Assembly (NCBI GenBank): GCA_004299845.1
Contig: CP036201.1
Span: forward strand, 3,162,001 to 3,226,000
DNA length: 64,000 nt
From: Verrucomicrobia bacterium S94
Lineage (GTDB): Bacteria > Verrucomicrobiota > Kiritimatiellia > Kiritimatiellales > Pontiellaceae
Direction: 5' to 3'
The notes beneath the pieces are model-generated. The model saw only the letters and a program-made list of their open reading frames with translations, made no database searches and was not told the origin of the DNA. Positions 43,388 through 55,705 of this stretch are shown piece by piece. The first letter of the stretch is position 1; each line of letters starts with the position of its first letter. Made by a program: the position numbers and the translations under genes.

Positions 43388-43993
43388 ATGAAATCGCTGA
43401 AACCGCTTTTTGATAAAAACCGCGAATGGGCGGAAAACGTTGAGAAGGAACAGCCCGGATTTTTTGAAGAACTGGCGAAACAGCAGTCGCCGGAAATTCT
43501 ATGGATCGGCTGTGCCGACAGCCGTGTACCGGCCAATGAGATTATCGATCTTCCGCCGGGAGAGGTTTTCGTACACCGCAATATTGCCAATGTGGTGGTG
43601 CATACCGATCTCAACTGCCTCTCCGTTATTCAGTATGCGGTGGAGGTTCTGAAGGTGAAACATATCATTGTCTGCGGCCACTATGGCTGCGGCGGCGTGG
43701 CGGCTTCGATGGAGGAGGCCAACCATGGTCTGATCGATAACTGGCTGCGCCACATTCAGGATGTCTACCGCATTCACGCCACGGAACTGAATGCCATTGA
43801 AGATGCGGTTGCGCGCCGCGACCGGCTCTGTGAACTCAATGTGATTGAACAGGTCGGCAATGTCTGCAGTACCACCATGGTACAGAATGCCTGGAAGTCC
43901 GGCCAGGAACTGCATGTCCACGGCTGGATCTATCGTCTCGAAGACGGTCTGCTGCGGGATATGGGGGTCACCGCCACCGGCCTCGACCGGTAG
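43388..43993 (+). CDS. Beta-class carbonic anhydrase
   Basis: 201 aa. Zinc ligands Cys in GCADSRVPA, and His and Cys in CGHYGCGGV, with the Asp-Arg dyad in ADSR. The fold and the ending HGWIYRLEDGLLRD are typical. It interconverts CO2 and bicarbonate in the cytoplasm. GAGAAGGAAA ribosome site. It follows the amidase by 19 bp, so it could use the CO2 that AguB releases (inference). Confidence 0.95.
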   Translation: MKSLKPLFDKNREWAENVEKEQPGFFEELAKQQSPEILWIGCADSRVPANEIIDLPPGEVFVHRNIANVVVHTDLNCLSVIQYAVEVLKVKHIIVCGHYGCGGVAASMEEANHGLIDNWLRHIQDVYRIHATELNAIEDAVARRDRLCELNVIEQVGNVCSTTMVQNAWKSGQELHVHGWIYRLEDGLLRDMGVTATGLDR

Positions 43994-44016: not shown

Positions 44017-44424
44017 ATGAATCTCCTTGCCGATATACAACCTGCCCGGATGCTGGGCATCACGGTTTCCAGACAGTGGAAAAACGGCATTGAGTTATGT
44101 GCTCCGCTGGAGAAAAACCGGAATGACAAAGGAACCGGATTTGCCGGTTCCATTTCGTCCATCCTTACGCTTGCCGGCTGGGCATTGATGACCCGGAAAC
44201 TGCACGAAGCCGGCCTTCAGGCCGAGGTTATGGTCGTGAAATCCGAAACGGAATTCACCGCTCCGGTAACCGGCGATTTCATGGCTGCCTGCGAAACATC
44301 GGATGCCGAAACAGCGCGCGTTTTACAGGAACTGGAAGCCCGCGGTCGCAGCCGGATTGAACTTTACAGCGAAATTCCCGACTGTGCCCGCATGACGGCA
44401 TCCTATGCGGTGATCGCTATTTGA
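44017..44424 (+). CDS. Thioesterase of the YiiD C-terminal (hotdog) type
   Basis: 135 aa. The LEKNRNDKGTGFAGSISSILTLAGW segment is the signature of the YiiD C-terminal-domain family of hotdog thioesterases, and FTAPVTGDFMAAC fits the second half. It presumably hydrolyses an acyl-CoA or acyl-ACP; the substrate is unknown. It overlaps the stop of the convergent EIIA gene by 8 nt. Confidence 0.8.
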   Translation: MNLLADIQPARMLGITVSRQWKNGIELCAPLEKNRNDKGTGFAGSISSILTLAGWALMTRKLHEAGLQAEVMVVKSETEFTAPVTGDFMAACETSDAETARVLQELEARGRSRIELYSEIPDCARMTASYAVIAI

Positions 44425-45259
44425 TCACCTTGCGGGTCTGCTGCACCAGAGCTTTCCAGAGCTCTTCCTCGTTTTCCGCGTTAAGCAGCAGATCGCGGGC
44501 CGTTTTATCGCGGAAGGTCTGCGAAAGTCCGGCCAGCAGTTTAAGGTAAAATGCACTGGTGGCGGTCGGAATCACCATAAAGAAAAAGAGGCGCGTAAGC
44601 GTCCGGCCGGGGCCGCCGAAACGAATGCCTTTTTTATGAATGCCCAGCGCCATGGTCAGCCCGCCGCCCTCCACTCCGCGCACGTGCGGAAATGCCATTC
44701 CACCGTCAATGGCGGTGCTGATGATGTCTTCGCGCTGCATCGCCATATACAACAGCTGGCGACCGTCTTCCACAAAGCCTTCGGCCTGCATGCGTTCACA
44801 GATTTCGCCAAGCACTTCCTCGGGCGTATTTCCGGTCAGCGGAGTAATCATCAGCGGCTGTGTGGAAAAGCGGGCAATGCCGATCTTCCGTTTTTCGCCA
44901 TACACCCGGCTGGCATGTTCCCGGGCCACCACTTCAGACGGCACGTAAAGATAGCGGGTGCAGTTCGGGCAGCGATGAATGTCCTCTGCATGATGCACTT
45001 CATTCACCTGGCTGATGCTGAGCTTCATACCGCAGCCCGTGCAGTGCCCGTCAATCAGCGGCACCACCGCTTCCGGATGCTTTTTGAGCAGATCGTTGAT
45101 ATGGGTCTTCGTACGTTGCGGAATGTTTTCGCTGAGCAATGCAATATTCTCGTCAAGTACGTCGAGCGGTGCTTTGGGCATCGCGACTTTTTTCTGGATG
45201 CGGGCAACTACAAGTTCCTGCAACTGAATCAGCTGATTGATGAGTTTACGATTATTCAT
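44417..45259 (-). CDS. Zinc-ribbon/EIIA(Ntr) fusion protein
   Basis: 280 aa. A helical N-terminus is followed by a zinc ribbon (Cys73-x2-Cys76, Cys97-x2-Cys100) and a PTS EIIA type-2 (Ntr/fructose-like) domain, about 135-280, with active-site His192 in AFPHVRG. No EIIB/EIIC is linked, so it is more likely a phospho-regulator than a sugar carrier. It starts inside the SulP stop (ATGAATAA) and is probably the SulP regulator. Confidence 0.85.
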   Translation of the reverse strand: MNNRKLINQLIQLQELVVARIQKKVAMPKAPLDVLDENIALLSENIPQRTKTHINDLLKKHPEAVVPLIDGHCTGCGMKLSISQVNEVHHAEDIHRCPNCTRYLYVPSEVVAREHASRVYGEKRKIGIARFSTQPLMITPLTGNTPEEVLGEICERMQAEGFVEDGRQLLYMAMQREDIISTAIDGGMAFPHVRGVEGGGLTMALGIHKKGIRFGGPGRTLTRLFFFMVIPTATSAFYLKLLAGLSQTFRDKTARDLLLNAENEEELWKALVQQTRKVIK

Positions 45260-46925
45260 GTTTCTTTCCTTTCTGGATTAGCTCCTGTGCACGCTCAAGA
45301 GCGGCATCAATGGAGGAGCAGAAATTTTCAGCGCCGACCTCGTCGAGGAACCCGGACTGTTTAAAGGTTCTGTGCGGCTGGGCAGCAACGCCGGAAAAAA
45401 CCAGCTCGGTTTTCTTTTTGCGGCATTGCGCATGCAGCTGCCGCAGATTATGCAGGCCGGTGGCATCAATGGCCGGAACGTGCCGTATCCGCAGAACCAG
45501 CACCGGAATATTTTTACGGCGGTTCCCCAGTGCATTCCAGAATGTATCAGCCATCCCGAAGAAAAACGGTCCTTCAACCTCGTAAACCTCAACCCCCGGC
45601 GGCACCTCACGCAGCGCAAAGGCCCGGGGATCTTCGGCAGAGTCGACATCGCCGCTGACGGCATCGGTGATCACACTGACATTGGCGATTTCCGACATCC
45701 GCCGGATAAACAGCAGGGCCGACAGCACAATACCGACTTCCACCGCCACGGTCAGATCGATCAGAACGGTCAGCAGAAACGTAAGCACCAGCACCAGCCG
45801 GTCACTGCGCGGTCCTTTCAGAATGGACAGAAAATTCTGCTTTTCACTCATATTCCAGGCGACCACCACAAGAATGCCCGCCAGCGTGGAGAGCGGAACC
45901 ATTTTAGCCAGCGGCGCAAACAGCAGAAGAATCAGGGCCAGCGTGACGGCATGGATAATTCCGGCCAGCGGGGAGCGGGCTCCGCTTTTCACATTTGCGG
46001 CGGTACGGGCAATGGCGCCCGTAGCCGGAATTCCGCCGAAAAAGGCCGAACCGATGTTGGCAACACCCTGCGCAATAAGCTCGGTATTCGGGCGGTGCTT
46101 TCCGCCGATCATGCCGTCGGCGACCGTGGCCGACAACAGCGACTCAATGGCCGCAAGCAGAGCAACCGTAAAAGCCGGGACAATCAGGTTCCGGAGTTCG
46201 GATAATTCGGGAATAGCAAACATGCCAGGCAGCGGCAGGGTACGCGGCAGTTCGCCGAAACGACTCCCGATGGTTTCAACATCAAGGTGCAACAGCGCCG
46301 CAACGGTGGTAGTTGCCAGCATGGCGATTAGCATGGCAGGGGTTCGGGGAGCCCACCGTCGCGACGCATAAATGATTAAAACCGTGGCTATGCCCAGCGC
46401 GGCCGCCGCCGGTGTGCAGGTGTCCATGGCCTGGAAATAGACCGCCCATTTCGGAATAAATTCTGCGGGAACAGTCTCGATATGCAGTCCGAACAGATCT
46501 TTGATCTGCGTGGAAAAAATGACCAGTGCGATCCCGCTGGTAAATCCGGTGGTGACCGGAAACGGGATGAAGCGGATCAGACCGCCGAGCCGGAACAGAC
46601 CGAACAGAATCAGCAGCAGGCCGGCCAGCAGCATACACCAGACGAGCCCGCTATAGCCGAATTCCGCCACAATGCCGGCAACAATCACCACAAATGCGCC
46701 TGTCGGCCCGCCGATCTGCACCCGGCTGCCGCCGAGCAGCGAAATCAACAATCCGGCAACGATGGCCGTGAAAAGTCCACGTTCCGGCGGCAGTCCGCTG
46801 GCTATGGCGAAAGCCATCGCCAGCGGCAGGGCAATCACCCCTACGGTAATCCCGGCGGAGATATCAGCGATAACGGTTTCCCGGGTACTGGTTTTCAGAA
46901 GAGTGAAGAACTTTGGGCGGAACAT
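45252..46925 (-). CDS. SulP family anion permease with STAS domain
   Basis: 557 aa. About 11-12 TM helices with the SulP signature (GVIALPLAMAFAIASGLPPERGLFTAIVAGL, GGSRVQIGGPTGAFV) and a cytoplasmic STAS domain (FFFGMADTFWNAL, VLRIRHVPAIDATGLHNLRQL). It transports sulfate, bicarbonate or another anion. With carbonic anhydrase 1.3 kb away, bicarbonate is a reasonable candidate (inference). It overlaps the EIIA-fusion gene. Confidence 0.93.
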   Translation of the reverse strand: MFRPKFFTLLKTSTRETVIADISAGITVGVIALPLAMAFAIASGLPPERGLFTAIVAGLLISLLGGSRVQIGGPTGAFVVIVAGIVAEFGYSGLVWCMLLAGLLLILFGLFRLGGLIRFIPFPVTTGFTSGIALVIFSTQIKDLFGLHIETVPAEFIPKWAVYFQAMDTCTPAAAALGIATVLIIYASRRWAPRTPAMLIAMLATTTVAALLHLDVETIGSRFGELPRTLPLPGMFAIPELSELRNLIVPAFTVALLAAIESLLSATVADGMIGGKHRPNTELIAQGVANIGSAFFGGIPATGAIARTAANVKSGARSPLAGIIHAVTLALILLLFAPLAKMVPLSTLAGILVVVAWNMSEKQNFLSILKGPRSDRLVLVLTFLLTVLIDLTVAVEVGIVLSALLFIRRMSEIANVSVITDAVSGDVDSAEDPRAFALREVPPGVEVYEVEGPFFFGMADTFWNALGNRRKNIPVLVLRIRHVPAIDATGLHNLRQLHAQCRKKKTELVFSGVAAQPHRTFKQSGFLDEVGAENFCSSIDAALERAQELIQKGKKHE

Positions 46926-46940
46926 GGAACGGTCCTTTGT

Positions 46941-48245
46941 TTAATTCATGAAATAACGAAGATAGATGTAGGCACTGCCGACAAGCAGACTGATGATCAT
47001 AAACGGGAAACCGTATTTGGTGAAGGAGCCGAAGGTGACTTTACAACCGTTCCGGTTGGCCACCTGGGCAATCACAACGTTGGCCGAAGCTCCGACCAGG
47101 GTGCCGTTGCCGCCGAAACAGGCCCCAAGTGCCAGCGACCAGAGCAGCGGCTCAGCAATCTGCGCATGAATGAGTGCCTCATCGCTGATTCCCATCTGTT
47201 GCGCAAAAACGGGAATAATGCCTTTCACCAGCGGAATCATGGCCATCACCAGTGGAATATTATCCACAATGGCCGAGGCAAGAGCACTGAACCAGAGAAT
47301 CGTCAGTGCGGTAGCCATCAGATTGCCTTTACAGATATGCAGAATAAATTCCCCCATCGCCTCGAAAACATGGGCATGTTCCAACGCGGCAATCATCATA
47401 AACAGACCGGAAAAGAAAAGAATCGTATTCCATTCGACGTGCAGCAGCGAATGGTGAATATCCTTCCGGCAGATCAGCACCATCAGCATGGCTCCCGCCA
47501 GCGCAATAATCCCCGGCTCGATGTCGAGCAGGCGACTGCTGAAAAATCCGGCAAGAATCAGCCCGAAAACGAAAAGCGATTTTTTCAATACCGCCGGCTG
47601 CAGAATCGCCTTTTCCGGACGGGACTGTTCGATGCGTTTACGCGTCTGTTCCGTGGTTCGGGTCTGTTTGCGGAACAGCAGGGCCAGCAGGGCCAGCAGC
47701 AGAACCATGCTTATAAGAACCGGCGGAGTGAGATTCAGCAGAAAGTCGTTGAAAGACAGATGCGTCTGCGAACCGATCAGAATATTCGGCGGATCGCCCA
47801 CCAGCGTTGCTGTGCCGCCGATGTTGGAAAAAACCGCTTCCATAATAAGAATCGGCGCGGCCGGAATTTCCAGAAGCTGACAGAGCAGAATCGTGATCGG
47901 CGCCATCAGAATGACCGTAGTCACATTGTCCAGGAACGCCGAAAGCAGTGCGGTGAGAATCATAAAAAAGATGACAATCACCAGTCCGTTGCCTTTGGCA
48001 ACGCGGGCCAGCTTGATCGCCAGCCATTCAAAGACTCCGGTATCGGTGAGGGTGTTGACAACCACCATCATACCGATCAGCAGAAAAAGAACATTCAGAT
48101 CAATGGCGTGCAGTGCCTCTTCATAGCCCACCAGATGAAAACAGACCATAATGCCGGCACCGATCAGTGCCGCAATGGTTTTATCAACAATTTCGGTGGC
48201 AATGAAAAAGTAGACCACCAGAAATACAATAATTGGAACGAACAT
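46941..48245 (-). CDS. SLC13/ArsB-NhaD type ion permease
   Basis: 434 aa, about 11-12 TM helices. Ion-transporter-superfamily hallmarks: SAFLDNVTTVILMAPITI, GGTATLVGDPPNILIG and ACFGGNGTLVGASANVV, two repeats with the conserved GD-PN/GAxxN. Probably Na+/H+ antiport or sodium-driven anion transport. GGAG ribosome site. It is flanked by the SulP gene and an EIIA-CBS regulator. Confidence 0.9.
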   Translation of the reverse strand: MFVPIIVFLVVYFFIATEIVDKTIAALIGAGIMVCFHLVGYEEALHAIDLNVLFLLIGMMVVVNTLTDTGVFEWLAIKLARVAKGNGLVIVIFFMILTALLSAFLDNVTTVILMAPITILLCQLLEIPAAPILIMEAVFSNIGGTATLVGDPPNILIGSQTHLSFNDFLLNLTPPVLISMVLLLALLALLFRKQTRTTEQTRKRIEQSRPEKAILQPAVLKKSLFVFGLILAGFFSSRLLDIEPGIIALAGAMLMVLICRKDIHHSLLHVEWNTILFFSGLFMMIAALEHAHVFEAMGEFILHICKGNLMATALTILWFSALASAIVDNIPLVMAMIPLVKGIIPVFAQQMGISDEALIHAQIAEPLLWSLALGACFGGNGTLVGASANVVIAQVANRNGCKVTFGSFTKYGFPFMIISLLVGSAYIYLRYFMN

Positions 48246-48255
48246 GGGTTACTCC

Positions 48256-49173
48256 TCAGTGGTTGATGACGGTGTCGAGCACCAGGCCTTTATCAATACT
48301 ACCGACCCAGCGATTGTTTTCATCCACGACGTAAAGCTTGGGATAGGATTTGATCGCGAGGTCGAAAACGATTTCCATGATGGTGTAATCCATCGGCACC
48401 GTTTTCACTGTCGGTGACATCATATCTGCAGCAGATGCAGCCTGTTCGTCTTCAAAATATTTTTCGAACGGATCAAATTCGGCAATAAAGGAGACGCTTT
48501 TGAGTTGGCCGAAAAATTCCGGCAACCCGTATTTAAAGAGGCGTTCCACCGTAATTTCACCGAGAATCCGCTGCTCTTTATCAACAACCGGAATCGCATG
48601 CTGGTGATTCACACTCATCAGATGCGAACAGACGGAAACCGGATCGGATTCTTTCAGGCTGAACCGGGGAGGGCGCATGATGTCACGCGCCAGAATCGGT
48701 TTGTCGATCCGAGGATTGTGCGCCAGAAAAATATCGCGCAGTTCAGTCGGGCTCTTTGCATTCAGTACCGCGCGCCGGACCGGCGGGTCCGTGAGCAGTC
48801 GCGAGAGCTGCGCCATGATTTTGAGCGAAACCGAGGGATCGACCTGCGGCGTCAGAATCAGGCAGACAATCCGAACCGGGGCCTGCTCAAACATGACCGG
48901 TTCTTCAAACGTGGCTACTGCGAACAGGGCCTGATGCAGATGTTCCAGCCGTGCATGCGGAAAAGCAATCCCGTCTCCCAGTGCCGTGGTCTGACGGTTC
49001 TCACGGGCAATAACCGCTTTCAGCACCGCCTCCGGGGTCAGCGTTGCGTTCACGTCATAAAATCCGTTGCTGCAAAGGCGGTTGAGCATCGTTTCAAATA
49101 CGGCGTCACGTGGAGCAGACCGGAGAGCGGGCTGCCACGATTCCTCACCGCGGGTATAATTCATGATATTCAT
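48256..49173 (-). CDS. EIIA(Ntr) domain protein with two CBS domains
   Basis: 305 aa from the ATG at 49173 (GAAGGAG 7 nt upstream). The EIIA domain, about 20-155, has His73 in GDGIAFPHARL. A CBS pair follows (AIPVVDKEQRILGEITVERL; YPKLYVVDENNRWVGSIDKG). It combines PTS phosphorylation with adenine-nucleotide or ion sensing and probably controls the adjacent permease encoded 10 bp downstream. Confidence 0.88.
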   Translation of the reverse strand: MNIMNYTRGEESWQPALRSAPRDAVFETMLNRLCSNGFYDVNATLTPEAVLKAVIARENRQTTALGDGIAFPHARLEHLHQALFAVATFEEPVMFEQAPVRIVCLILTPQVDPSVSLKIMAQLSRLLTDPPVRRAVLNAKSPTELRDIFLAHNPRIDKPILARDIMRPPRFSLKESDPVSVCSHLMSVNHQHAIPVVDKEQRILGEITVERLFKYGLPEFFGQLKSVSFIAEFDPFEKYFEDEQAASAADMMSPTVKTVPMDYTIMEIVFDLAIKSYPKLYVVDENNRWVGSIDKGLVLDTVINH

Positions 49174-49186
49174 AGAGCATCTCCTT

Positions 49187-49654
49187 CTAAAGCATTGCTT
49201 CAGCTTTGGCCTGCAGGTAGTGAGAAAGAATATTCTTCGCCTCAAGGGTTCCCACGAGACGGCGCTCGCTGTCCACCACGGCAATTTCACGGATATGGTT
49301 CAGCTGCATCAGGTCGAGCACCTCTTTCAGGGGAGAAGCGGTCTGAACAGTGACCGGATGTTCCGCAAGATCGTGGCCGCGGAAAAAATTCAGCACATAA
49401 CTGATGGCGGGCAGCAGGTCGGCTTCTTCGCTTCTGTTTCGCGAGAGTTCAAGCATTTTAACCGCAATCTGCTTGGCCTGTATGACACCGACCAGACGGC
49501 CGGAGGCATTTTCAAGATACACCTTGCTGCGGTCGGATGCGCAGAGTGCCGAAGCCAGCTTTTCAAGCGAAACGTCGCTTTCAGCACGCAGACAGGTACT
49601 GTTAATGAGGTGGGCAATATCTTTAACGGTGGTTTTTTCAAGACTGTTCTTCAT
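49187..49654 (-). CDS. CBS-domain protein
   Basis: 155 aa from the ATG at 49654. Two CBS motifs: VYLENASGRLVGVIQAKQIA and IREIAVVDSERRLVGTLEAKNIL. It probably binds adenine nucleotides as a stand-alone regulator of the neighbouring transporters. The ribosome site of the following EIIA-CBS gene overlaps its stop. The frame open upstream to 50017 is not used. Confidence 0.85.
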   Translation of the reverse strand: MKNSLEKTTVKDIAHLINSTCLRAESDVSLEKLASALCASDRSKVYLENASGRLVGVIQAKQIAVKMLELSRNRSEEADLLPAISYVLNFFRGHDLAEHPVTVQTASPLKEVLDLMQLNHIREIAVVDSERRLVGTLEAKNILSHYLQAKAEAML

Positions 49655-49766
49655 GGAAGTCCTTTTGATTGAATTCGTGCAGTAATGAGAGTGGTTCACC
49701 ATCAGTACGATGGTTTTTCCTGCCCCCGGAACCGGATGAGGTCCGGGGAATCTCACATCAGCGGAA

Positions 49767-50084
49767 TCAAATCCGCAGAGGCATACGCCATCCGCCGGCC
49801 ATTGGAGCCCCACTGGCGGACAGCATAAAAAAGCGGCATTTCGTATAGCCGAAATGATCAAATGCAAACGCGTACCTCTTACACGGAGCATCAAAGAAAT
49901 ATACGCGGACATCCTCCGGAGAATCCCGGTCCGGTACGGTACCGTCGATGCGGCACAGCTCATCGCTTTGTTCAATACAGGTCTGGACATTCCGTTCCCG
50001 CAGCGGCTCTGCAACAAAGACGGCCAGCAGATTCAGCATCAGCGGAATCAGCAGCGCAAACAGAATGGTGCGGTTTCTGAGCAT
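49767..50084 (-). CDS. Small exported or membrane-anchored protein
   Basis: 105 aa. N-terminal hydrophobic helix (TILFALLIPLMLNLLAVFVA) acting as signal or anchor; then a small domain with four Cys (QTCIEQSDELC, DAPCKRY, TKCRFF), possibly disulfide-bonded in the periplasm. Not recognised. It starts 8 bp after the antiporter stop and is in the same orientation, so it is probably cotranscribed. Confidence 0.6.
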   Translation of the reverse strand: MLRNRTILFALLIPLMLNLLAVFVAEPLRERNVQTCIEQSDELCRIDGTVPDRDSPEDVRVYFFDAPCKRYAFAFDHFGYTKCRFFMLSASGAPMAGGWRMPLRI

Positions 50085-50092
50085 AGTATATT

Positions 50093-51766
50093 TTATCCTG
50101 TAACCGTCCGGCGTTTAACCAGCTCGGCATTAATGCTGCGGCGCGCGGCACGGATATCGAGCACACCGAGCAGTTTGCCCGATGCCTGACTGTCGATAAC
50201 GGGAAGCGACTCCACCTGATTGTTACTCATTTCCTTGAGTGCTTCAGCCAGACTCATGGTTGAGAGCAGTTTATGGCGGGCCGGCTGCATCACATCGCCC
50301 ACTACCAGCCACTGCCAGGTATCACGCTCATTGAGCAGTTCCTTCAGGTTTTCAAACGTCAGCACGCCGATAATTGTTCCCTCGCTGGAAACGACCGGAT
50401 ATACAAAGGTGTCCTGATCGGCAAAGTGCTGGATCACAGTCTCAAGCGGAGTGCCTTCGTGCAGTGGAACGATGCCTTTATCAACGACATCATTCACTTT
50501 CATTTCCGCCATGACATCTTCTTCGGTCACATTGCAGCCGATTTCTCCGGCTTTTTTTACCGCCATGCGTGTAAACACCGGACCGATCAGCTGCACGCAC
50601 AACGTGGTAGCCGTGACCGTGAAAATGATCATATCGCCCAGGTTCATCCCGTCCAGAATTTCGATGTGGCGCATGTTCTGACTGGCCACAATGGAAAGAC
50701 CGACAGCCACCCCGCCCTGCGCAAAAATCGCCATACCGAGGTAGTTCTGTACCGGTTTTTCAGCGTTTGAAATGCGCCCGCCCCAATACGCGCCAATCCA
50801 CTTTCCGAAACTGCGCATCACCACATAGGCCGCCACCAGCCCCCATACCCATATCGGCATGTTGTTGAGCGAAAGACGGGCCCCGACCAGCACGAAGAAA
50901 ATGATGTAAATCGGTGTCGCAAATGAACGAACGGTTTCAAACAGCTTCTTGGAACGGTTCGGCGCTTTGTTGATCAGCACAATACCAACGGCCATGGTCG
51001 CCAGAATCAGGTCCATCTTGAAGGCCACCGCCAGACCGATGCACACCAGGATCAGGCCGATGGAAATCCCCAGACGTTTTTCGCTCTGAGGCAGATAACT
51101 CATCACATAATCGAGCACAAATCCGCAGATGATCCCCAGCAGAATGGCGCCGCCGAGTTCAATAAACGTATGCAGCAGTGTCAACCCGATGGAATGATCA
51201 CTGCCCTGAACCAGAATGGTTGCAACGGATGTACCGAGCCCGTAGAGCGTCATAGCCAGCGCATCGTCCAGCGCCACAATCGCCACAATCGCCGTCGTCA
51301 GCACCCCGGCCGAGCGGTATTCCCAGAGCACATCAATGGTCGATGCCGGATCGGTGGCCGAAGCAATCGCCCCGAAAACAATTCCGGCGGCCAGTGCAGT
51401 CACCCAGTTATGGCAGACAAAATAGAGAATCAGCGTGGAAACCGCACACACCAGCACAAAGGCCGCAACGCCTTCACCAATCAGAATCGTCGTGAACTGT
51501 CTGCCGTATTTCTTGAAAATACCGGCACTGAGCTCGCCGCCGACCAGAAACCCGATCAACCCGAGCGCAAAGTTGTTGAAAGGGGTTAAGGCTTCAATAT
51601 CACTCGGATGCAGCAGTCCGATTCCGGTATCACCAATCAGCACTCCGACCACAATATAGCCGACCACCTGCGGAACTTTCAGCTTCTGGAAAATAAATGC
51701 GCCGATCACCCCGCCGGCGACACAGATTCCGAGGATGGCAAGAACGCCTAATTCGATACCGGGCAT
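50093..51766 (-). CDS. CPA2-type cation/proton antiporter with C-terminal CBS pair
   Basis: 557 aa from the ATG at 51766. About 12 TM helices of the Na+/H+ exchanger fold (VPQVVGYIVVGVLIGD; ASATDPASTIDVLWEY; VALDDALAMTLYGLG carrying the paired Asp). Two cytoplasmic CBS domains follow at about 420-550 (TFVYPVVSSEGTIIGVLTFENLK; ESLPVIDSQASGKLLGVLDI). It exchanges Na+ or K+ for protons. CBS instead of the usual TrkA-N tail suggests nucleotide control. It lies 4 bp downstream of an HTH-EIIA gene. Confidence 0.92.
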   Translation of the reverse strand: MPGIELGVLAILGICVAGGVIGAFIFQKLKVPQVVGYIVVGVLIGDTGIGLLHPSDIEALTPFNNFALGLIGFLVGGELSAGIFKKYGRQFTTILIGEGVAAFVLVCAVSTLILYFVCHNWVTALAAGIVFGAIASATDPASTIDVLWEYRSAGVLTTAIVAIVALDDALAMTLYGLGTSVATILVQGSDHSIGLTLLHTFIELGGAILLGIICGFVLDYVMSYLPQSEKRLGISIGLILVCIGLAVAFKMDLILATMAVGIVLINKAPNRSKKLFETVRSFATPIYIIFFVLVGARLSLNNMPIWVWGLVAAYVVMRSFGKWIGAYWGGRISNAEKPVQNYLGMAIFAQGGVAVGLSIVASQNMRHIEILDGMNLGDMIIFTVTATTLCVQLIGPVFTRMAVKKAGEIGCNVTEEDVMAEMKVNDVVDKGIVPLHEGTPLETVIQHFADQDTFVYPVVSSEGTIIGVLTFENLKELLNERDTWQWLVVGDVMQPARHKLLSTMSLAEALKEMSNNQVESLPVIDSQASGKLLGVLDIRAARRSINAELVKRRTVTG

Positions 51767-51770
51767 GCGT

Positions 51771-52412
51771 TTACTCTCCAAACAACTTTGAATGAATAAA
51801 TGCGGGATCGTCGGATTCAATGATGGCCTTACGTACGGCGGCATCCTTCAGCCGGTTGCTGACCCCCGAAAGCGTCCGGATATATTTGGCATGCTGATCG
51901 GAACGCGCCGCCAGCATGCAGACAATCTGAACCGGCTGATTATCGAGCGAGGAATAACCGCTGATCGGTTTTTTGCAAACCGCCACCGCCATCACCAGAT
52001 CGGATACCGAATCGATGCGCACATGCGGCACCCCGACCCCGAAACCGATGCCGGTACTCATCAGCTCCTCACGGGCAAAAATTCCTTTCAGCAGTTCTTC
52101 ACGATTATGCACAAACGGCGTCTCTGCCAGCAGATCGACCAGATTCCGCAGCACCGTATCTTTATCCCCTTCTTCCAGAATCAGGATACGTTCCGCCGTC
52201 AGCGTTGCACTGCTGGTCATCCCTTTTTTCTTCGCCGGCATCTGCTGCGAGATCCGGGAATTCACCCAGTTTTCCACATCGCTGCGCTTAAAGCGCCAGG
52301 TGGTCCCCAGCTTACCGCCGGGCAGATCTCCCTTCTGAGCCCAGTCATAGACCGTTCGTTCAGAAACGCGAAGATATTCAGCCACTTCTTCAATCGTCAT
52401 AATTTCGTGCAT
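51771..52412 (-). CDS. Excisionase-type HTH fused to an EIIA(Ntr) domain
   Basis: 213 aa from the ATG at 52412 (GGAGGG upstream). Residues 1-55 are a MerR/excisionase-like HTH (TIEEVAEYLRVSERTVYDWAQ, then PGGKLGTTWRF). Residues about 70-213 are EIIA with His130 in GVGVPHVRI. It couples PTS phosphorylation to DNA binding and probably controls the antiporter gene 4 bp downstream. A TTTCCAGAGATTGGAAA motif lies 65 bp upstream. Confidence 0.88.
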   Translation of the reverse strand: MHEIMTIEEVAEYLRVSERTVYDWAQKGDLPGGKLGTTWRFKRSDVENWVNSRISQQMPAKKKGMTSSATLTAERILILEEGDKDTVLRNLVDLLAETPFVHNREELLKGIFAREELMSTGIGFGVGVPHVRIDSVSDLVMAVAVCKKPISGYSSLDNQPVQIVCMLAARSDQHAKYIRTLSGVSNRLKDAAVRKAIIESDDPAFIHSKLFGE

Positions 52413-52676: not shown

Positions 52677-53015
52677 TTAATGATCACACGCATTGCTTCC
52701 GGGAACCAGTTCGCCCCCCAGCCATGCTTCTGCAACGGCCCGGGGCTCCCCGGACGGCGCCCCCACGATGGTTTCGATATTATTCTGGGCAAACAGCTGC
52801 TGCGCTCGCGATCCCATACCCCCGGCAATAATCGCCGTGGCTCCCTGCTCAGCCAGCCAGGCCGGCAGAACCCCCGGCTCATGTGGCGGCGGCACCAGTT
52901 CGGTGCTGGCCGTAATCGTCTTTTTCTCCGGATCAACATCCAGCAGAGTGAACACTTCGCAGTGTCCGAAGTGCATACACAGTTTTCCTTCTGCAGTAGG
53001 TATTGCAATTTTCAT
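52677..53015 (-). CDS. NifX/NifB-C-like (dinitrogenase iron-molybdenum cofactor family) protein
   Basis: 112 aa. Family pattern KIAIPTAEGKLCMHFGHCEVFTLLDV, then ATAIIAGGMGSRAQQLFAQNNIETIVGA. Small proteins of this fold bind Fe-S or Mo-Cu-S clusters; the Desulfovibrio orange protein (Orp) is an example encoded beside Mrp-type ATPases. It is the last gene of the operon and follows the Mrp ATPase. Confidence 0.88.
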   Translation of the reverse strand: MKIAIPTAEGKLCMHFGHCEVFTLLDVDPEKKTITASTELVPPPHEPGVLPAWLAEQGATAIIAGGMGSRAQQLFAQNNIETIVGAPSGEPRAVAEAWLGGELVPGSNACDH

Positions 53016-53033
53016 GATAATGTCCCTTTGTGG

Positions 53034-53924
53034 TTATAATTCATTTTTTCCCGAAAGCTTCTTAACCCGGCCGTTTTCCACCCTGTCCGCGGTACAGTGC
53101 TGTTCGAGCTTCAGAAGAGGTTCGATAATGTCATTAAGCAGCCGCGCGGTTTCGGAAGCGGCATGACTCTGAATAAAGGGCCGGCCCGAATCGCACGCTC
53201 TGCCAACCGCCGGATCAATCGGAATTTTTCCAAGAAAAGGTACCCCGAAATCCGCCGCCATGGATTCGCCACCGCCGGAAAGAAAAATATCCACCACTTC
53301 ACCGCATTTCGGGCAGGTGAAACCGCTCATATTCTCCACAATACCCAGTACCGGCATAGACAGTTTTTCACAGAAGCGCAGCGATTTCCGCACATCCACT
53401 GCGGCCACCTGCTGCGGCGTTGTCACAATCACCGCGCCGGACGGCTCCTCAATCAGCTGACAGATCGACAACGGTTCATCGCCCGTACCGGGCGGACAGT
53501 CGACAATCAGATAATCCAGCTCACCCCATTCAACATCGCCGAGAAACTGCCGGATAACCCCCATTTTCATGGGACCGCGCCAGATAAACGGATTATCGGC
53601 ATCTTCACACAGAAAACCCACCGACATCACCTTCAGGCTTCCGGCATAAACCGGCTGAATCGCTTCGTCGGTCCCCGTCAGCAGAAGCGGACCGATCCCG
53701 AGCATCGTCGGAACACTGGGACCATGAATATCAACATCCAGCAGACCGACACGCCGGCCGGCTTCCGCCAGCGCAACCGCCAGATTTACCGCCACGGTAC
53801 TTTTCCCGACACCGCCTTTGCCGGACAACACGCAGATTTTATGCTTCACCCGCGCCATACGGTCATTGATTTTCCGGCGTTCTTCTTCCGGATTATGCGG
53901 AGGTTTCGCAGCGCATTCACTCAT
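53034..53924 (-). CDS. Mrp/NBP35-type iron-sulfur cluster carrier ATPase
   Basis: 296 aa. Deviant Walker A SGKGGVGKSTVAVNLA, DVDIHGPSVPTMLG switch, VDCPPGTGDEP, and the CxxC of FTCPKCG that bridges an Fe-S cluster in the dimer. The ApbC/Mrp branch carries or inserts Fe-S clusters. GGAGAAAG ribosome site; the start overlaps the MBL-hydrolase stop by 8 nt. Confidence 0.93.
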   Translation of the reverse strand: MSECAAKPPHNPEEERRKINDRMARVKHKICVLSGKGGVGKSTVAVNLAVALAEAGRRVGLLDVDIHGPSVPTMLGIGPLLLTGTDEAIQPVYAGSLKVMSVGFLCEDADNPFIWRGPMKMGVIRQFLGDVEWGELDYLIVDCPPGTGDEPLSICQLIEEPSGAVIVTTPQQVAAVDVRKSLRFCEKLSMPVLGIVENMSGFTCPKCGEVVDIFLSGGGESMAADFGVPFLGKIPIDPAVGRACDSGRPFIQSHAASETARLLNDIIEPLLKLEQHCTADRVENGRVKKLSGKNEL

Positions 53925-54834
53925 CGTTCTTTCTCCACCTCATGTTAAAACCGGCGAAACCGGATATAATTTCTGCATCGAGATGATCCCTGAAACAGTT
54001 CACCGCCGCCTCTCCGGTACAGTGACACGGAACCATAAAGGCCGGAGCAAATTCCCGAAGGGCCCCGACCGTCGCGGCCAACCGCTCTTCCGTCGCGCTT
54101 TTCAGATGAAGTCCGCCGATAATACCGAGAACCGGTTTTCCGCCGGTCGTATCTCTTATGTAGTCGAGCGTGTTAATCAGACCGGAATGGCAGCATCCGC
54201 ACACCACCAGTAATCCATCGGGAGTCTCAATCCACATCGCCATATCATCCCTGATCGGATCCGGCCGCAGCCCTTCCCGATCACAGAAAAAAGGCCCGCC
54301 CGTATCCTCCAGTGTATGGGAACGTGGAATCGGACCGGTCAATCCAACTCCGGGCGCAATTTCCATCGGTTCCCGGACCCAGTGCAGATGCGAATCCGTC
54401 AGATTCGCCACCAGCAGCCGCTGTTCCGCAGGCATGGAAATCTCTTTCGGATCCCGCCCCGGATAAATACTGAAACGTTCACTGAAAATTTTCGGATGGC
54501 CATACACCTGAATCTCAGGATTTTCCCCAAGTACCACATCAACTGCACCCGTATGGTCATAATGACCGTGACTCAGCACAAAAATATCCGCATCCGCCAG
54601 CTCGAATCCGCATGCCTCCGCATTCTGCTCCAGCGCATGGCCCTGTCCCGTATCCATCAGAATTTTTTTACCGCCCGCGTCAATCTGCACCGAAAAGCCA
54701 TGCTCGACCATCAGCCCCTCCGCCGCTGTATTATCGACCAGAATCCGAAGCCCCCGGAATGTACCGCCCGATTGCCCGTTCCAGAAAAAAGATTCGCTTT
54801 GGAGTGTGCCCGTTGGAGGTTTACGAGGTGACAT
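53917..54834 (-). CDS. MBL-fold metallo-hydrolase (COG1237 type)
   Basis: 305 aa from the ATG at 54834, inside the end of the upstream ATPase gene. Metal motif LSHGHYDHTGA (HxHxDH), then CGCCHSGLINTLDY and the final PCHCTGEAA. Members are often encoded with Mrp/MinD-like ATPases in anaerobes. The substrate is unknown; the fold is related to ribofuranosylaminobenzene phosphate synthase-like hydrolases. Confidence 0.88.
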   Translation of the reverse strand: MSPRKPPTGTLQSESFFWNGQSGGTFRGLRILVDNTAAEGLMVEHGFSVQIDAGGKKILMDTGQGHALEQNAEACGFELADADIFVLSHGHYDHTGAVDVVLGENPEIQVYGHPKIFSERFSIYPGRDPKEISMPAEQRLLVANLTDSHLHWVREPMEIAPGVGLTGPIPRSHTLEDTGGPFFCDREGLRPDPIRDDMAMWIETPDGLLVVCGCCHSGLINTLDYIRDTTGGKPVLGIIGGLHLKSATEERLAATVGALREFAPAFMVPCHCTGEAAVNCFRDHLDAEIISGFAGFNMRWRKNDE

Positions 54835-55705
54835 GACAACACTCCTCAGCGAAAAGCTGTTTTTGAATGGTTTCCCAGATTTCGCGTACTGCCCGGGCGG
54901 CAGCGCCATCGGAACTCTCGACCAGTGCCCGGGCATTGACCTGAGCATCAGTCACTGCCGCATCATATGGAATACGACCGACCGGCACCGCCTTCATCGA
55001 TTTCGCCAGCGCCTCAATCCGTGAAGTCATTTTCGGGTTAATATCCCACTTGTTCACACAAATCATTGCCGGAATCCGGAAGTGGGTAATCAACTGAAGC
55101 ACCCGCTCAAGATCGTGCTCTCCGGAAAGAGTCGGTTCGGTAACCACCAGTACAGCATCCGCACCGGTAATGGAAGCAATCACCGGACAGCCGATGCCCG
55201 GAGAGCCGTCAACCAGCACCACCGTGGCCTTTTCTTTTTCCGCTATTTTCCGGATTTCAGAACGCAGCAGACTTACCAACTTGCCGGAATTCTCGGCCCC
55301 GGGGTGCATCCGTGCATGTACCATGGAACCGTGCCGCGTCTTTGAACGATGCCAGACTCCGCATTCCTGTTCCGGAAAATCAATGGCTTGTTCCGGACAG
55401 AACTCCACACACGCGCCGCAGCCCTCGCACGCCATCACATCCACATTAAAATCCTTAATCGCATCGAAACGGCAGACCGCCATACATAGACCGCATTGCA
55501 TACAGTCTCCGGACCGTATTTCAGCCAGATGACCGCTTACAAAGTTTTCCGATGTCTGAATTTCGGGTTGCAGAATCAGATGCAGATCGGCGGCATCAAC
55601 ATCGCAGTCCGCCAGCACCGGATGTACCGCAAGGGCCGCGAAAGAGGCCGTAATACTGGTTTTCCCCGTGCCCCCTTTCCCACTGATAATCACTAATTCC
55701 TTCAT
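54821..55705 (-). CDS. MinD/Mrp-like ATPase with inserted 4Fe-4S ferredoxin domain (paralogue 1)
   Basis: 294 aa. Walker A SGKGGTGKTSITASFA, then ferredoxin motifs CMQCGLCMAVCRFDAI and CEGCGACVEFCPEQAI at about 65-110, then VDGSPGIGCPVIASI. Such ferredoxin-ATPases are found in the Orp complexes of Desulfovibrio. ATP-driven cluster assembly or electron transfer is inferred. It overlaps its paralogue upstream by 4 nt. Confidence 0.92.
   Translation of the reverse strand: MKELVIISGKGGTGKTSITASFAALAVHPVLADCDVDAADLHLILQPEIQTSENFVSGHLAEIRSGDCMQCGLCMAVCRFDAIKDFNVDVMACEGCGACVEFCPEQAIDFPEQECGVWHRSKTRHGSMVHARMHPGAENSGKLVSLLRSEIRKIAEKEKATVVLVDGSPGIGCPVIASITGADAVLVVTEPTLSGEHDLERVLQLITHFRIPAMICVNKWDINPKMTSRIEALAKSMKAVPVGRIPYDAAVTDAQVNARALVESSDGAAARAVREIWETIQKQLFAEECCHVTS

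Follow-up and report, generated by a model that had tools for sequence, protein, structure and literature searches.

Conserved pairing of an EIIA-CBS2 protein with a CitMHS/ArsB-type carrier, alongside a probably regulatory phosphotransferase system, in Verrucomicrobia bacterium S94

In the nitrogen phosphotransferase system of E. coli (PTSNtr, PtsP-PtsO-PtsN), the terminal EIIA protein controls cation transport through YcgO, TrkA and KdpD (PMC11808508, PMC13104625). In particular, unphosphorylated PtsN binds and inhibits the K+/H+ antiporter YcgO (PMC11808508). The incomplete, permease-less PTS of Brucella has EI, HPr and EIIA and a regulatory role, with two EIIA proteins only (PMC2937029). 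We found no description of a pairing of these Brucella EIIA with ion carriers. Transport is also controlled by CBS pairs that sense adenine nucleotides or c-di-AMP (PMC7900238). We searched the literature for fusions of EIIA with CBS domains or antiporters and obtained no relevant result, and the terms CBS, "fused", c-di-AMP and Verrucomicrobia are all absent from the text of a review from 2026 on PTSNtr (PMC13104625). Where EIIA and ion carriers form conserved one-to-one pairs, as found here across a phylum, likely targets are named, and the role of EIIA in permease-less PTSs becomes a testable question.

The DNA analysed here, hereafter the window, is a 64,000-nt stretch from Verrucomicrobia bacterium S94 (Kiritimatiellota, marine), the genome of which is one 4.1 Mb contig. 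The initial annotation had described, in region 44417-52412, an island of seven proteins encoded on one strand, in which transporters alternate with EIIA proteins that keep their active-site histidine. Pfam searches and reading of the DNA bear out the seven proteins, their common strand (minus) and the histidine in all three EIIA, which match PTS_EIIA_2 with 77-96 bits (cut-off 27). The alternation is not strict, since the carrier and the SulP transporter adjoin each other. Three starts were corrected from the DNA, at 49173 for EIIA-CBS2 (RBS GAAGGAG), 49654 for the CBS2 protein and 51766 for the CPA2-CBS antiporter. The latter start is 4 bp past the stop of HTH-EIIA, and genes inside each half of the island are either spaced by 4-15 bp or overlapping. 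A 438-bp gap splits HTH-EIIA and CPA2-CBS from CBS2 and the remainder, so that the island may be two transcription units. This gap holds a 105-aa ORF (49767-50084, minus strand) with a hydrophobic N-terminus and no Pfam match. Its status as a gene is uncertain; a 40% identical ORF occupies the same place in one relative (G005, locus L043).

EIIA-CBS2 (305 aa, 48256-49173), the regulator of the second module, was identified by Pfam and by its structure model. Its partner is a CitMHS/ArsB-type carrier (434 aa, 46941-48245; PF03600, E 6e-90). A stand-alone CBS-pair protein (155 aa, 49187-49654; PF00571) is encoded upstream of EIIA-CBS2, as it is in the genus and order. The class of the carrier is assigned at the superfamily level only, as it stays below the cut-offs of the subfamily and equivalog models MamN, the nearest in NCBIfam (188 bits for a cut-off of 500), ArsB (120 for 457) and NhaD (50 for 577).

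A survey of 97 relatives identified 31 carriers orthologous to that of the window, in 29 genomes. EIIA-CBS2 is upstream and on the same strand in all 31 cases, and within 339 bp in 30 of them. The distance is at most 55 bp in 29 cases and 339 bp in one, which is a partial carrier match; in the last case, a tandem copy of the carrier lies between. The most distant carriers have different flanking genes. The arrangement is also kept in a distant paralogue pair (27-31% identity). Across the phylum, we analysed 40 EIIA-CBS2 loci, a non-random sample chosen by hand among the best-scoring entries of the match list. A CitMHS-like gene is located directly 3' of EIIA-CBS2 in 37 of these 40 loci, and a CLC chloride channel takes its place in two (L191, 2393-3832; L192, 2269-3714; PF00654, E ~6e-84). 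The remaining locus (L170) truly departs from this pattern: the gene 3' of EIIA-CBS2 is dihydrolipoamide dehydrogenase-like. The active-site histidine is kept in 40/40 proteins. With a crude choice of ORFs, homologous neighbour pairs amount to 1% upstream of EIIA-CBS2 versus 55% downstream. All these genomes share common ancestry, and the conservation counts are therefore not independent. For EIIA-CBS2 and its carrier, the conserved pairing in relatives that the initial annotation expected of EIIA and transporter genes does hold. Its recurrence through the phylum suggests that the energy state of the cell could control ion traffic, and the swap from a CitMHS/ArsB-type carrier to a CLC channel would fit a regulator able to switch partners.

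Structures were modeled as single chains. The EIIA-CBS2 model (mean pLDDT 84, pTM 0.65) is similar to EIIA-Ntr and to CBS pairs, among them AMP-bound and c-di-AMP-bound ones; it does not establish how its two parts are positioned relative to each other. The stretch that separates the CBS units (residues 218-239) is conserved in sequence and modeled with low confidence. The fold matches of the CBS pair recall the CBS-regulated transporters and channels CLC, MgtE and OpuC. In contrast to these, the CBS pair is here part of a separate subunit and is joined to a putatively phosphorylatable EIIA.

The first module associates an HTH_17-EIIA regulator (213 aa, 51771-52412; Pfam HTH_17 and PTS_EIIA_2) with a CPA2-type cation:proton antiporter carrying a C-terminal CBS pair (557 aa, 50093-51766). 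Membership of the antiporter in CPA2 is indicated by PF00999 (E 2e-33, in addition to the CBS match) and by the acidic motif VALDDA, recognized by eye. Chlamydia "PtsN" proteins likewise combine a DNA-binding domain with EIIA, and we know of no pairing of these proteins with a CPA2-CBS antiporter. The pairing proposed by the initial annotation is conserved in one direction: 39 of 41 CPA2-CBS orthologues have an EIIA gene at most 341 bp upstream. In some distant cases, this EIIA is devoid of the HTH part and is at times preceded by a separate HTH-EIIA. Conversely, 13 HTH-EIIA matches are on contigs without the antiporter, and several small genomes have HTH-EIIA, beside TatD-like and other genes, with no antiporter found at the threshold used. 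HTH-EIIA therefore probably has a role beyond CPA2-CBS.

The zinc-ribbon-EIIA protein (Zn-EIIA, 280 aa, 44417-45259; Zn_ribbon_9 and EIIA) is encoded next to a SulP-STAS anion transporter (557 aa, 45252-46925; PF00916 and STAS). Most genomes of the class encode a full-length Zn-EIIA, with 36-97% identity and varied neighbours, and its four cysteines and histidine are kept in 46/46 homologues. SulP is beside it in part of the genus only, so that this pairing is not conserved beyond the genus. Zn-EIIA is best explained as a separate class-wide regulator, and SulP with Zn-EIIA as a genus-level add-on. In two relatives (G022 and G006), a complex-I/Hyf-like module is found next to Zn-EIIA instead of SulP. 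Such membrane modules were seen at L045 2543-11932, with an extra HTH-EIIA, and at L049 287-5635. As for the identity of SulP, the bicarbonate transporter BicA (NF050096, 252 bits versus a cut-off of 880) and the dicarboxylate transporter DauA (NF008660, 516 bits versus 614) were both rejected, the scores being below the cut-offs.

A phosphorylation network of the kind put forward in the initial annotation supposes EI and HPr in the genome. Both were found outside the window, with HprK, in a cluster of HprK, HPr and EI genes. There are two PF00381 (HPr) proteins, both with the GIHxRP motif; the gene of the second is close to an aldolase gene. A further EI of the PtsP type (L009 2982-5267) combines GAF with the PEP-utilizers N and C domains, a feature of the EI of PTSNtr. 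In the same region (L009 2982-7062), the GAF-EI gene is immediately 5' of an amtB-like gene, which reads as an ammonium transporter. The GAF-EI and an HPr relay ending in EIIA recall the E. coli PTSNtr (PMC11808508, PMC13104625). Unlike in E. coli, HprK is present and many EIIA occur together with CBS2, HTH or zinc-ribbon domains, several being linked or fused to transporters. With the PtsN equivalog model TIGR01419 they score 35-72 bits (35-54 for the three of the window), below the cut-off of 138.7. The search for permeases used PF02378 alone, outside of which lie other EIIC and EIID families; it gave no EIIC in this genome and a match in 8 of 97 relatives. Because the phosphorelay is present while PF02378 is lacking, the PTS of this genome is probably regulatory, without a sugar permease of the standard type.

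The genome encodes ten PTS_EIIA_2 domains, and the active-site histidine is present in 10/10. It is likewise kept by all homologues inspected within the class (46 Zn-EIIA, 23 EIIA-CBS2 and 31 HTH-EIIA). Six of the ten are fused to a transporter or directly adjoin one: a CPA2-EIIA fusion, an APC-EIIA (amino-acid permease) fusion, an EIIA by a second CPA2 and the three EIIA of the window. In the CPA2-EIIA fusion (L001 5499-7217), NN (VALNNIL) is found at the usual DD/QD/ND of CPA2, and the ion-binding aspartate may be missing. One relative has a CPA2 antiporter and two EIIA domains in a single 895-aa protein (L055 2997-5684). A second Zn-EIIA is two genes away from the APC-EIIA fusion. Two EIIA domains follow a USP-like region (recognized by eye, no Pfam match) and are encoded near Rnk/GreA-like genes; the second of these genes (L004 8038-9266) is in two overlapping frames, possibly by a frameshift. 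Finally, an EIIA is fused to DacZ_P and diadenylate cyclase domains (L005 5137-6477, minus strand), in which inspection by eye shows the DGA and RH motifs to be intact; a CdaA gene is present as well. The same fusion is found at L102 9298-10647 and L105 3729-5075, and in two relatives the EIIA-diadenylate cyclase gene is inside a Zn-EIIA2/RlmN/APC-EIIA cluster. Through such a fusion, the state of the PTS may be tied to c-di-AMP, which regulates potassium and osmolytes. Fed by two HPrs, the ten EIIA proteins may be subject to cross-talk instead of dedication.

A single conserved seven-gene island was rejected: in the closed genome G032, CPA2 is at 3.34 Mb and the carrier at 0.33 Mb, and the modules are therefore not one fixed unit. 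Neither does the general proposal that each EIIA gates its neighbour find support, given the unrelated neighbours of Zn-EIIA and the HTH-EIIA found without antiporter. We rather favor, with reasonable confidence, a regulatory PTS with two conserved transporter modules and a SulP/Zn-EIIA add-on, where EIIA-CBS2 would gate its carrier. Phosphoryl groups would flow from PEP to EI (ptsI or GAF-PtsP), then to HPr and to at least ten EIIA domains. EIIA-CBS2 would be a dedicated regulatory subunit bound to its carrier. Carrier activity would be set by two inputs together, namely phosphorylation of His73, which would reflect the PEP/pyruvate state, and binding of c-di-AMP or an adenine nucleotide by the CBS pair. 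We infer this dual control from the silencing of YcgO by unphosphorylated PtsN in E. coli, taken as the model (PMC11808508), and from CBS biology (PMC7900238), the evidence at hand being that of genes. HTH-EIIA would probably regulate transcription, possibly of the antiporter operon, besides or instead of binding the antiporter. More tentatively, with the balance slightly against it, EIIA-CBS2 could be a phylum-wide subunit of ion transporters that reads both PTS phosphorylation and an adenine nucleotide and switches partners. An EIIA-diadenylate cyclase would be among the further outputs of its presumably permease-less PTS, which would thereby tie together the state of PEP, c-di-AMP and the balance of ions.

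The HTH and zinc-ribbon domains, the HTH-EIIA found without CPA2 by TatD-like and other genes in small genomes, and the class-wide Zn-EIIA with its varying neighbours would also suit EIIA proteins that chiefly control transcription or have other targets in the cytosol; their genes would then adjoin those of transporters because of shared expression and not for gating. We hold this to be rather unlikely: EIIA-CBS2 has no DNA-binding domain, yet accompanies its carrier phylum-wide and through the CLC swap, and EIIA is fused to CPA2 and APC transporters. One-to-one pairing is compatible with either direction of signaling, and regulation by PTSNtr proteins reaches several targets (PMC13104625), so that the transporter might be the sensor, setting the phosphorylation or location of an EIIA that reports ion status to the PTS. 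The known action of PtsN on TrkA, KdpD and YcgO runs from EIIA to the transporter or its regulator (PMC13104625, PMC11808508) and makes such a reversal improbable. The fructose/Ntr type of the EIIA domains could finally evoke functionless remnants of sugar PTS operons. This idea was already disfavoured and is very hard to reconcile with the histidine kept in all homologues examined, over wide divergence, and with the retained EI, HPr and HprK; a degenerate sugar PTS was rejected on these grounds.

Two genes on the plus strand are convergent with the island, a YiiD_C-type thioesterase (44017-44424; PF09500), which overlaps Zn-EIIA by 8 bp, and a beta-carbonic anhydrase (43388-43993; PF00484). 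A beta-carbonic anhydrase is also near Zn-EIIA or CPA2-CBS in the relatives G001, G009, G017 and G025. Upstream of the island, region 52677-55705 reads, from its sequence only, as NifX-like and MinD/Mrp-type P-loop genes.
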